From Fimbriimonadia bacterium (GTDB lineage: Bacteria; Armatimonadota; Fimbriimonadia; Fimbriimonadales; JABRVX01), in the NCBI GenBank assembly GCA_039961735.1, contig JABRVX010000010.1, forward strand, positions 1 to 64,000: a stretch of 64,000 nt of DNA. Reading direction: 5' to 3'. Below the pieces are notes generated by a model. It had not been told where the DNA came from. It saw nothing but the letters and a program-made list of their open reading frames with translations, and did no database searches. The position numbers were made by a program, and so were the translations under genes. Numbering within the stretch: the first letter of the stretch is position 1; each line of letters begins with the position of its first letter. Below, in pieces: positions 15,448 through 19,009 of this stretch.

Positions 15448-15581
15448 GTCGCAGCAACCGCCCCGCTAACAAGGGGACTGAAACATAGATTGGGGAAAAG
15501 CGAAATGGTGATGAGGTCCTCTGGAGTGGGCCCGGAGGGCTGCAGTCGCAGCAACCGCCCCGCTAACAAGGGGACTCAAAC
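15448..15581 (+). CRISPR. Two-repeat CRISPR remnant
   Basis: Two 37-base copies, 15448-15484 and 15545-15581, begin GTCGCAGCAACCG, contain the hairpin CCCCGCTAACAAGGGG, and end GACTGAAAC or GACTCAAAC. Only that one base differs. The GAAAC end and internal palindrome are usual for CRISPR repeats, and the changed end of the second copy fits a terminal repeat. The interval between them is 60 bases, longer than common spacers. No further copies occur nearby. Two CARF genes start 80 bases downstream. Confidence 0.7.
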
Positions 15582-15660
15582 CGTCATCTCGCTCTGGGGC
15601 AGTGCTCCTACTGTACGTAGCACCTACTCGGCATTCAAGGTTCGGAGATAGGAGGTACCC

Positions 15661-16971
15661 ATGTCAAAAACTCTCATCGTCACAGTCGGTGGATCGTTCC
15701 AGCCCGTCGTAACGGCCATTAAGAAACTTCGGCCTACGCGAGTTCTCTTCGTCTGTTCACAGAAGAGCCGGAACCAGGTGGTTGGCGAAGGCACTCCTTG
15801 CGAGGTTCGTGAGGGCTGCGAGGTCCGTCGGTTACCCAATATCGTCAAGCAGGCAGGCATCGAGGAGCGCTTTGACGCAGAGAAGGATGTACTGGTCCTG
15901 GAGCACGAGGATGCGCTAGAGGACAGTTACGATGCTATCGCTGACGCGATCCGAGCGGTACAGTCGCAGGACCCCGGGGGCGAAGTGCTTGCGGACTATA
16001 CCGGGGGTACGAAGACCATGTCCGTTGCGCTGGCGATGGCCGCGTTTGACCTCGGTGTCATGCTGTACATCGAAGCTGGCCCGCGCAGGGATATCGAGCG
16101 CGTGCACGGCGGCGAGGCGCCGATTTTGGTCGGAACGTCTAGCCTTCGTGTGGCGCGGGTCGTGAACCAGTGGGTTCCTAGCCAGCTGGAGAAGTACGAC
16201 TACACTGGGGCAGTTACACAGCTCGACGGATTGCTACGTTCGACGCAACTCTCGCCGGGATTGCAGTCCCGGATCCGCGACCTCGCATCGCTCTGTCGGG
16301 CCTTCGAGGCGTGGGACCGATTGGACTACGAGGGCGCGATGTACCTGTTGGAGCCGCACATGGAGAGCGATCAGATCCGCCCTCTGGGGGTCTTCTTGCA
16401 GAAGCTTATCTCCGCGCGCCGTGGTATGGATGCTGCTGCCGACGATGCGAGCTTCGGGAAGAGCACCGGATATGAGCTTGCCGAGGACCTAGTACGCAAT
16501 GCGGAGCGCCGTGCGGCTACAGAGCGATATGACGACGCGGTGGCCCGGCTCTACCGAGCGGTCGAGCTAACAGCGCAGGTACGCTTGCGCACGGCGTTTG
16601 GCATTGACAGCGCCGACGTCCCAATAGAGCGCTTGCCGGCCGAGCTTCAGCCGAAGTATGAAGGTAGGCGCTCTGCGAATGGGAAGATCCAGGTGAGCCT
16701 CGTGCAGGCGTATGAGCTGCTTACCGACCTTGGAGACGAAGTCGTTGCCGATGTCTGGCGTGAGAAAAAGGAACGGATTCTGGACGCACTGGATGTGCGT
16801 AACAACAGCTCGATGGCCCATGGCTTACGACCCATAGCCGAGGAGCAGTATCAACATGTCTATGCGGATCTCGTATCGCTGATGGAGCGCGTGATAGCGG
16901 GCGCGACGAAGCAAGACCCGCCGATCGGCGCTCCCCAGATCCCGACTCGTCTATCGCTATCCAAGAGTTAA
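15661..16971 (+). CDS. CARF-HEPN protein, Csm6/Csx1-like (Cas02710 family)
   Basis: The 436-residue protein opens with a CARF Rossmann-like domain (about 1-160): TLIVTVGGSFQPV is the first strand-loop, and DYTGGTKTM near residue 118 is the ligand-loop signature. The C-terminal part carries a HEPN ribonuclease motif, Arg380-N-N-S-S-M-A-His387 (R-x6-H). Proteins of this type are type III CRISPR ancillary RNases switched on by cyclic oligoadenylate. AGGAGGT precedes the ATG. It lies between the CRISPR remnant and a second CARF gene 15 bases downstream. No Cas10 or other cas gene is in the window, so its activator would have to come from elsewhere. Confidence 0.8.
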   Translation: MSKTLIVTVGGSFQPVVTAIKKLRPTRVLFVCSQKSRNQVVGEGTPCEVREGCEVRRLPNIVKQAGIEERFDAEKDVLVLEHEDALEDSYDAIADAIRAVQSQDPGGEVLADYTGGTKTMSVALAMAAFDLGVMLYIEAGPRRDIERVHGGEAPILVGTSSLRVARVVNQWVPSQLEKYDYTGAVTQLDGLLRSTQLSPGLQSRIRDLASLCRAFEAWDRLDYEGAMYLLEPHMESDQIRPLGVFLQKLISARRGMDAAADDASFGKSTGYELAEDLVRNAERRAATERYDDAVARLYRAVELTAQVRLRTAFGIDSADVPIERLPAELQPKYEGRRSANGKIQVSLVQAYELLTDLGDEVVADVWREKKERILDALDVRNNSSMAHGLRPIAEEQYQHVYADLVSLMERVIAGATKQDPPIGAPQIPTRLSLSKS

Positions 16972-16986
16972 TGTGAGGATTCGAGA

Positions 16987-18039
16987 ATGAAGACCTTTAT
17001 CGTCACTGTGGGCACATCGCTGCTCACCAACAAAGGCCGACCGTGGGAGGGTCGCGACAGAGATAATTCGCTCCCAAACTCGGCCGAAGCCACTCATTGG
17101 CTCCGAGGTGCCGATCCTGTCACCGCTTCTGCCGAGACCAACACCCTAAACAAGGTAGGACTCGAGACAGGTGACGCGATCGCATTTCTGCACACGGCCA
17201 CTGACGAGGGGCGCTGGTGCGCCGAGGTGCTAACCAAGTATTACGAAGGACGGGGTTTCCGCACGCAAGCTCACGAGATCAGCGGCCTTAACTACAAGAC
17301 TGGTGACGTAACGGATCGAGGACTGCGCGCTCTGGTGCATCTCATGTTCGACCTACATCGCAAAGCACAGAAGGTCGGCTCAGGAACCATCTTCTGCGCG
17401 ACAGGTGGGTTCAAGGCGGAGACAGCATACATGTATCTTGCTGCTACGCTCCTTGGCTGCCGCGTGTGCTACGTACACGAGTTGTATAAGGAGTTGGTGT
17501 GGCTTCCGGCGCTACCGGTGAAGCTGGACATGTCTCTGGTACGTGACAACGAGGACTTCTTTGCCAAGTTACAGGATGATGTAACCAGAGCCGACGAAAT
17601 CAATCACGGAGGCTGGCTGCAGGGTACTCCGCAACTCCGCTTTTTGGTTGACGAGGCCGATGGTCTCATGCAACTCAACGCTGCCGGCATGCTCCTCTGG
17701 GAACTCTATCGCGGCGCAGCGGGTGAGGTCTCGGGTCAGGCTGGGTCCAGCAACAAGAATCGACTTTCCAAGAGTGAGATGCACCACTGGCAACCTCATA
17801 GCACCAAGTTGCTAAGTCTAGACGATTGCGACTTCGTGGAACGATACGAGTATCCGCACGAGAACGTGCCAACGTCACCAAAGAAGGGTTTGGTGAGGTC
17901 CGACTATGAGAAGAAGGCAGTCTTCGTTCGAGCGATGCATGGTGACAACAGCGTCCCCCTGAAGGTCATAACGATCGAGATGCCCGCTGACCTTTTCAAA
18001 CTTGCTGCACGTCACATCGGGGAAATCTTCGAGAGTTAG
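16987..18039 (+). CDS. CARF-domain protein, APE2256/TIGR02619-like
   Basis: A 350-residue protein whose first 190 residues form a CARF domain: FIVTVGTSLLTN at the start and FCATGGFKAETAYMYLA near residue 135 match the Cas_APE2256 group, which includes Sulfolobus ring nucleases that cleave cyclic tetra-adenylate. The remaining 160 residues contain a helix-rich piece (LQLNAAGMLLWELYRG) and a beta-rich end. That end could be a winged helix plus a second domain; a RelE-like toxin fold is possible but only a guess. It is cotranscribed with the CARF-HEPN gene. It may turn the signal off (ring nuclease) or be a second effector. Confidence 0.72.
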   Translation: MKTFIVTVGTSLLTNKGRPWEGRDRDNSLPNSAEATHWLRGADPVTASAETNTLNKVGLETGDAIAFLHTATDEGRWCAEVLTKYYEGRGFRTQAHEISGLNYKTGDVTDRGLRALVHLMFDLHRKAQKVGSGTIFCATGGFKAETAYMYLAATLLGCRVCYVHELYKELVWLPALPVKLDMSLVRDNEDFFAKLQDDVTRADEINHGGWLQGTPQLRFLVDEADGLMQLNAAGMLLWELYRGAAGEVSGQAGSSNKNRLSKSEMHHWQPHSTKLLSLDDCDFVERYEYPHENVPTSPKKGLVRSDYEKKAVFVRAMHGDNSVPLKVITIEMPADLFKLAARHIGEIFES

Positions 18040-18261
18040 TCTGGTAAACGAACCTCGCTAGCAGTCAACGGTGGAGTGGGTGTCACAAGCCGTAAGACCC
18101 AGGTTGCGGCTGCCGAGCCCCGGCGAGTCGCGCCAGGGTAAGATGATGGGCACCACGCACGATGGCGCGAGGAGGTTCTCTACGCCACGTTCCGATCGAC
18201 TTCAGCACTTCGATTTTGCAGCACACGAGGCGGAGTCTGCGGACCGGACATGATCCGCGAT

Positions 18262-18493
18262 CTAGATGCTCAGCGATAACAGGTTATCCTCGAGCAGATC
18301 CATCGTCCGCGGCCCGATGATAGGCGAAGTGATGCTAGGCTGCGACGCGCACCATGCCAGTGCCAGTTGACCGGGTGGCACTCCGCGCTCACGAGCATAG
18401 TTGCCCAAGTTCTCGGTGCCCATCCGAAGTTCGTGCACCCCAGGCCAGCTTGCTCACCAGTACATCGGTTCTGCCCCATGCGATGTATTCCAC
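18262..18493 (-). pseudogene. Aldo/keto reductase remnant with the middle deleted
   Basis: From a GTG at 18493, preceded by AGAGGA, the sequence reads VEYIAWGRTDVLVSKLAWG, a good aldo/keto reductase N-terminus. A shift of frame then gives TNFGW, the next conserved piece. Immediately after comes the C-terminal end in another frame: YARERGVPPGQLALAW, then TSPIIGPRT, then LEDNLLSLSI and a stop at 18262. About 230 bases remain of a gene that is normally near 950, and the catalytic Asp-Tyr-Lys-His region is missing. Both ends are still recognisable, so the loss looks fairly recent. Confidence 0.72.
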
Positions 18494-18854
18494 CTGATTT
18501 CCTCTTTTGTGCATGCTGCTGTATGGACCAGAGCTCGCAGGGTCACACCTATGAGGGGTCGGCATGATCGGCGGACTACCGCGCGCAGGCGCATCTCGTG
18601 GCTTCTATGTGATAGGGTATGGGTAGCGGGGTTAGTTACCGAATCCATGCCCCAGTGAGTGCTCGTAGGGGCCTCTTGTGTCGCGGAACTCGCTCAGAGG
18701 CTCCTATCTTGACTTCTCGGGTGGCTCGGAGAGATGGAAAAACGGCTATAGATAGAGTCGCAGTCCCTTTCATCTGAGCTTCCACCTGCCCGCTCGGCTG
18801 CCACGCCCACGACCATCCCCTTCAACCCCGAAACACCCCTTTTGCAACGGGCAT

Positions 18855-18919
18855 CTGCGCGGGAACGACAGGGGATAACACACTCTCGCCGTGTGTATCG
18901 TTCCCGCGCAGGCGGGAAC
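18855..18919. repeat. REP-like inverted repeat
   Basis: CTGCGCGGGAACGA (18855-18868) is repeated inverted as TCGTTCCCGCGCAG (18898-18911), and the right copy also forms a hairpin with GCGGGAAC (18912-18919). It belongs to the TTCCCGCG-(n)-CGGGAA palindromes also found at 21536-21597, 58421-58594 and 58646-58672. Confidence 0.6.
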
Positions 18920-19009
18920 CCAGAGTCGTGTCAATCCTGGTGCTGAGTCTTGGAACCGTAGATGCCTCTCCGGAAGCGGCGGAGGCATCACTGCCATGAT
19001 GTCTCGACC

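Follow-up and report, generated by a model that had tools for sequence, protein, structure and literature searches.

The genome of a Fimbriimonadia bacterium was found to carry an intact pair of type III ancillary effector genes together with a type III-C complex, and no cyclase-competent Cas10 was found in its nearly complete assembly, which is an unusual combination. Both genes are of a familiar type, and what is puzzling is the origin of their signal. The pair lies in the window analysed here, a stretch of 64,000 nucleotides at the start of a 170-kb contig (assembly of 3.24 Mb in 77 contigs, 98.9% complete, 0.36% contamination). We think it probable, with limited confidence, that the effector pair is an ordinary one that no longer lies with its cas operon and acts in trans, and whose signal source is missing from the assembly or was recently lost.

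The case is one of type III ancillary effectors without an evident signal maker, alongside a III-C complex of a kind thought to be effector-less. The main published survey confined its search for effectors to the 4 kb around cas operons (PMC11229360), and displaced effectors would therefore escape it. Several such displaced effectors are found in the phylum of the window genome.

The gene pair and its two-repeat mini-array

The initial annotation had described two CRISPR-like repeats followed by a CARF-HEPN ribonuclease gene and a second CARF gene, and the repeats and both genes were confirmed at their coordinates (Table 1). Profile searches bore out both CARF assignments. The first protein matched the TIGR02710 family over its full length (1.1e-60; 205.6 bits against a cut-off of 83.9), PF09670 (2.3e-34) and PADLOC CARF_HEPN (1.3e-128, full length covered), and the second matched PF09651 (1.8e-27), TIGR02619 (1.6e-25) and PADLOC CARF7--CARF_DUF2103 (7.9e-73, residues 1-345). 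All of the motifs originally read from the translations are present: the CARF motif TGGTKTM of the CARF-HEPN protein starts at residue 114 (TGGTK at 114-118), its HEPN motif is intact (R380-x6-H387, RNNSSMAH), and ATGGFK occupies residues 138-143 of the CARF7 protein. The base composition of the CARF-HEPN gene is close to the window norm. Searches for viral relatives of this second protein gave none, and no DNA-level relative was found on plasmids.

Table 1. Location of the CARF genes, the repeat copies and the related arrays
Feature	Location	Strand	Remarks
CRISPR repeat copy 1, GTCGCAGCAACCGCCCCGCTAACAAGGGGACTGAAAC	window, 15448..15484	+	37 nt; recurs with 2 mismatches on contigs C8 and C59
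Inter-repeat stretch, 60 nt	window, 15485..15544	+	not a typical spacer; resembles decayed leader end of C8/C59 arrays (suggestive only)
CRISPR repeat copy 2	window, 15545..15581	+	37 nt; one mismatch (CTCAAAC end)
CARF-HEPN ribonuclease, TIGR02710 / Csx1 type, 436 aa	window, 15661..16971	+	profile matches, motifs; uninterrupted frame
CARF7 (APE2256) protein, 350 aa	window, 16987..18039	+	profile matches; uninterrupted frame
Repeat copies, window			n = 2
Four-repeat array	contig C8, 11820-12088		leader-bearing
Four-repeat array	contig C59, 28138-28401		leader-bearing
Leader of C8 array	L012, 11487-11819
Leader of C59 array	L013, 15800-16137

The two repeat copies are identical at 36 of 37 positions with a spacing of 97, and 79 nt separate the end of the second from the ATG of the CARF-HEPN gene. 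At 60 nt, the gap between them exceeds the spacer length of the sister arrays on C8 and C59 (38-44 nt). In a right-anchored alignment this stretch is colinear with the leader end of those arrays, shuffled sequences doing as well in 0.8% (C59) and 4% (C8) of cases, a resemblance noted after the fact that hints only weakly at a decayed leader. The mini-array has no leader upstream of repeat 1 like that of the C8 and C59 arrays, no regular spacers and no recognisable promoter, and it looks like a relic. Phage sequences gave no match to the array or mini-array sequence. Beyond the CARF pair, at 18040-19000, about 1 kb of the window holds no good gene; an apparent decayed oxidoreductase fragment and the dispersed-repeat-like GTTCCCGCGCAGGCGGGAAC were observed there.

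Sister arrays and cas genes in the rest of the genome

The window repeat is the GTCGCAGYRACCGCCCC... repeat, of which ten copies were found at three loci in the genome (0 or 2 mismatches over 32 nt). Since the reversed control pattern gave zero copies genome-wide, these are genuine CRISPR repeats, as had been supposed from the two window copies. The arrays on C8 and C59 have a common leader, about 330 nt long and containing inverted repeats (GCGGGACTCTC), in which a clear promoter can be read (TTGACA-N18-TACAAT/TAGAAT), and no cas genes adjoin either of them. Both arrays end in a near-perfect fold-back (C8:12057-12165, C59:28370-28482), made up of the sequence after the last repeat and then its inverted copy including the repeat end (GTTTC). 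The resulting hairpins (-74 and -83 kcal/mol, z about -9) differ in sequence and are alike in design, and they are either a terminator or an assembly fold-back.

A scan of 85,000 genomes for CCCCNNTAANNAGGGGACTGAAAC revealed two further array families. In Coprothermobacterota, 35 copies of GTTGCATCCCCATCCCCGCTAATAAGGGGACTGAAAC lie directly upstream of a III-A cas10 with SGGDD. The crRNA handle comes from the 3' half of the repeat. Because this III-A array has the same 3' half as the window repeat, that half is of the type III kind and is used with an active cyclase, so the lineage of the window genome probably has or had a system with GGDD-Cas10.

As the initial annotation had stated, no cas1, cas10 or effector-complex genes lie near the pair: a genome-wide profile search placed all RAMP, Cas1 and Cas10-palm2 matches on other contigs, and no cas genes were found on the window contig. 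The description of the pair as stand-alone thus suits its neighbourhood and not its genome, which has two more arrays of this repeat and a type III operon in trans. No complete type III locus sharing the repeat was found just outside the window, the other arrays and that operon being on other contigs.

The RAMP genes are confined to positions 47-53 kb of contig C8 and form the sole RAMP-type system found in the genome, a type III-C operon (cmr1, cmr6, csx11/cas10c, cmr4, cmr5, cmr3) about 34 kb from the array on the same contig. The operon matched PADLOC Cmr3, Cmr4, Cmr5, Cmr6 and Cmr1, and its Csx11 matched PADLOC Cas10c (4.6e-105) and, slightly below the cut-off of 248.95, TIGR02682 (240.4 bits). 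Among the 291 genomes of the phylum that were searched, Csx11 is present in the window genome alone. Genes for DUF499 and DUF1156 proteins, of anti-phage type, stand immediately upstream of the operon (C8:53139-59014). Csx11 lacks all ten cyclase motifs given by Hoikkala et al. (PMC11229360) and any GGDD variant; no HD is found anywhere in it, and LHMTGK was read where LHDIGK is expected. Its alignment to the III-A Cas10 profile was too weak for the residues of the palm to be located, and the loss of cyclase activity is therefore argued from motif absence and from the literature, in which the Cas10 of III-C is cyclase-inactive (PMC11229360, PMC12669027) and III-C has no known effectors (PMC11229360).

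The Cas10 palm2 profile gave no match over its cut-off in the whole genome; a weak match at C4:58803 was rejected as a Cas10, being a GGEEF diguanylate cyclase. Cas6 (PF10040) was likewise found nowhere in the genome. With III-C as the only RAMP system, a Csx11 devoid of cyclase motifs and III-C being cyclase-dead, no cyclic-oligoadenylate maker was found in this 98.9%-complete assembly. The assembly is fragmented, and an operon could be missing from it. The search for cas10 and for the repeat that the initial annotation had called for thus yielded the III-C csx11/cas10c and the C8 and C59 arrays. Its suggestion of a pair working in trans with a distant type III system is only partly supported, since such an operon does exist elsewhere in the genome but is a III-C operon whose Csx11 lacks cyclase motifs.

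Cas1 was found at two other loci, on contigs C42 and C12, where gene names were assigned by reading and not by HMM. The C42 neighbours were read as a type I-C operon with a long array, and the C12 Cas1 adjoins a RuvC-motif protein, read as Cas9, with its own array; the repeats of both arrays are unrelated to the window repeat. The cas1 of the I-C-like locus (C42:3628-4497) has an in-frame TAG stop, yet its array has more than 40 repeats.

Homologs in the phylum and the source of the signal

Homologs of both proteins occur in type III operons. The CARF-HEPN protein has homologs within or next to III-A operons in G125, G138, G236, G237 and G219, next to a shorter III-A-like operon in G001, and in plasmid III-B operons with Cas10 in Synechocystis and Thermomicrobium; for the CARF7 protein they are found in operons of type III-A (G178) and III-B (G223, Allomeiothermus). 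In a count over 291 genomes of this phylum, uncorrected for kinship, an active-type Cas10 palm2 was present in 15 of the 20 genomes with TIGR02710 over the cut-off versus 66 of the 271 others (Fisher p 7e-6), and in 25 of the 34 with strong CARF7 matches (p 3e-11). The five CARF-HEPN genomes without a palm2 match are the window genome (G000), G087, G147, G250 and G256; in at least one of them, G250, a short contig holds a fragmentary Cmr operon, so incompleteness accounts for part of them.

In this phylum it is not rare for CARF genes to be displaced. Chromosomal CARF-HEPN genes without a recognised cas gene in a 20-kb stretch were found in G031 (about 66.4 kb on C12), G070 and G087, and in G176 and G177 the stretches around CARF7, of 10 and 20 kb, hold no recognised cas genes. 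On another contig, G031 has a III-B operon with AGGDD, and G136, which also has a lone CARF-HEPN gene, has a III-A operon with AGGDD. Because the contigs of these genomes are fragments, the distance to cas genes is a lower bound. The lone CARF-HEPN gene adjoins a PIG-L-like gene in G070 (L048 9580-10832) and in G087 (L045 9059-10390), and that of G070 is frameshifted. In G136, a two-repeat element (L043 11195-11300), its sole occurrence in that genome, lies about 200 nt upstream of the lone CARF-HEPN gene. The pair of Csx1 and Cami1 is common, being found in 54 of 1113 type III loci, and signalling between loci has been proposed (PMC11229360).

By homology, cyclic tetra-adenylate would be made in an infected cell by a type III complex whose Cas10 is an active cyclase, and it would bind the CARF dimers of both proteins (the cA4 preference being taken from the family only). 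Activation by cA4 is expected of Csx1-type proteins, and by cA6 of Csm6. The HEPN pair of the CARF-HEPN protein would then cut RNA non-specifically, and the C-terminal domain of the CARF7 protein would act on another target; in the cousins of this protein that bear RelE, ribosome-bound mRNA is cut. Under this displacement reading the pair would be fed in trans, and the mini-array would be a leftover of the GGDD-Cas10 III-A-like system that the lineage probably has or had. With no palm2 over the cut-off and no RAMP genes beyond III-C, the partner for this mechanism was not found, and the absence of a cyclase-competent Cas10 is most likely due to missing sequence or to recent loss.

Alternatively, a cyclase-bearing type III operon may have been deleted, so that only the effector pair, two repeats and a decayed leader are left; the proteins would then be dormant and on the way to loss, and III-C would work without signalling. 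The absence of a GGDD Cas10 and of Cas6 from the genome as searched, a mini-array with one degenerate repeat, no recognisable promoter and a stretch like a decayed leader, and the frameshift in the relative G070 are consistent with such a relic; however, both frames are intact with all key motifs, the CARF-HEPN gene does not stand out in base composition, and an operon could hide in assembly gaps. We consider a relic rather unlikely. It is distinctly unlikely that the pair has been kept functional with the cyclase-dead III-C Csx11 as its only Cas10, in which case either III-C signals by a novel chemistry or the pair answers a non-Cas10 nucleotide. III-C signalling or another ligand is possible but contradicted by what is known of III-C. 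A pair that answers another nucleotide from host or phage, independently of CRISPR, would fit the recurrence of cas-less CARF-HEPN genes in three further genomes and the PIG-L-like neighbours in G070 and in G087, the latter without a palm2 match, but it is hard to reconcile with the strong statistical link of the family to Cas10 palm2 and with CRISPR repeats adjoining the genes, and is very improbable.

More improbable still is the III-C complex itself as partner, its Csx11 making or releasing a nucleotide signal without GGDD. Although it is the sole RAMP system in the genome, shares its contig with an array of the window repeat and carries a Csx11 unique among the 291 genomes of the phylum, this Csx11 has neither a known cyclase motif nor HD, and III-C is on record as cyclase-inactive and without known effectors. 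A toxic-type gene preceded at short distance by a two-repeat element, as here (79 nt) and in G136 (about 200 nt), also recalls CreTA/CreR, in which case the element would encode a guide RNA repressing the toxic RNase genes behind it. Partial complementarity to the regulated promoter would be expected of such a guide, but that of the 60-nt stretch to the promoter, 5' region and genes was not above shuffled controls; the guide was rejected and the idea is scarcely credible. The options of a relic or of another nucleotide, both raised in the initial annotation, may still hold, as may a missing Cas10.

Comparison with known systems

The CARF-HEPN protein is like the TIGR02710 / Csx1 proteins of type III systems in its full-length profile match and its intact CARF and HEPN motifs, and it is 40% identical over its full length to the protein embedded in the Synechocystis plasmid III-B operon. 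Members of this family are usually encoded alongside a cyclase-competent type III system, although this does not strictly define them; the gene described here lies far from any cas operon, in a genome in which no active-type Cas10 was found.

The closest solved relative of the CARF7 protein is Cami1 (CARF7-RelE, 8phb/8phj), to which its CARF domain and linker are alignable (profile positions 47-243, E 4.6e-23), whereas its C-terminus (about residues 250-350) is not alignable to RelE and falls in PADLOC CARF7--CARF_DUF2103, a family for which no characterisation was found in the literature. RelE-type PADLOC matches stop by about residue 256 (composite PDLC01033: 315), the last ~100 residues match no PDB chain or Pfam family, and K257, S261, H266, V284, V314 and T329 are kept in seven relatives. 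A single-sequence AlphaFold model (pLDDT 34.7) was too poor to judge a distant RelE fold. A C-terminus that aligns to neither RelE nor PDB chains, its conserved residues and the DUF2103 family membership together indicate that, judged by sequence, the protein is a Cami1-like sensor with a different output domain and not a Cami1. This conserved, uncharacterised domain is a plausible new effector activity. The CARF fold was also aligned with that of 7pq2-type proteins (profile positions 2-193), which we take to be, with their relatives, Sis0811-type CARF ring nucleases; unlike these, the CARF7 protein has an extra linker and a C-terminal domain, and its ring-nuclease activity is only putative. 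Finally, III-C loci on record lack a cyclase and are without known effectors, whereas in this genome CARF effectors are present elsewhere.
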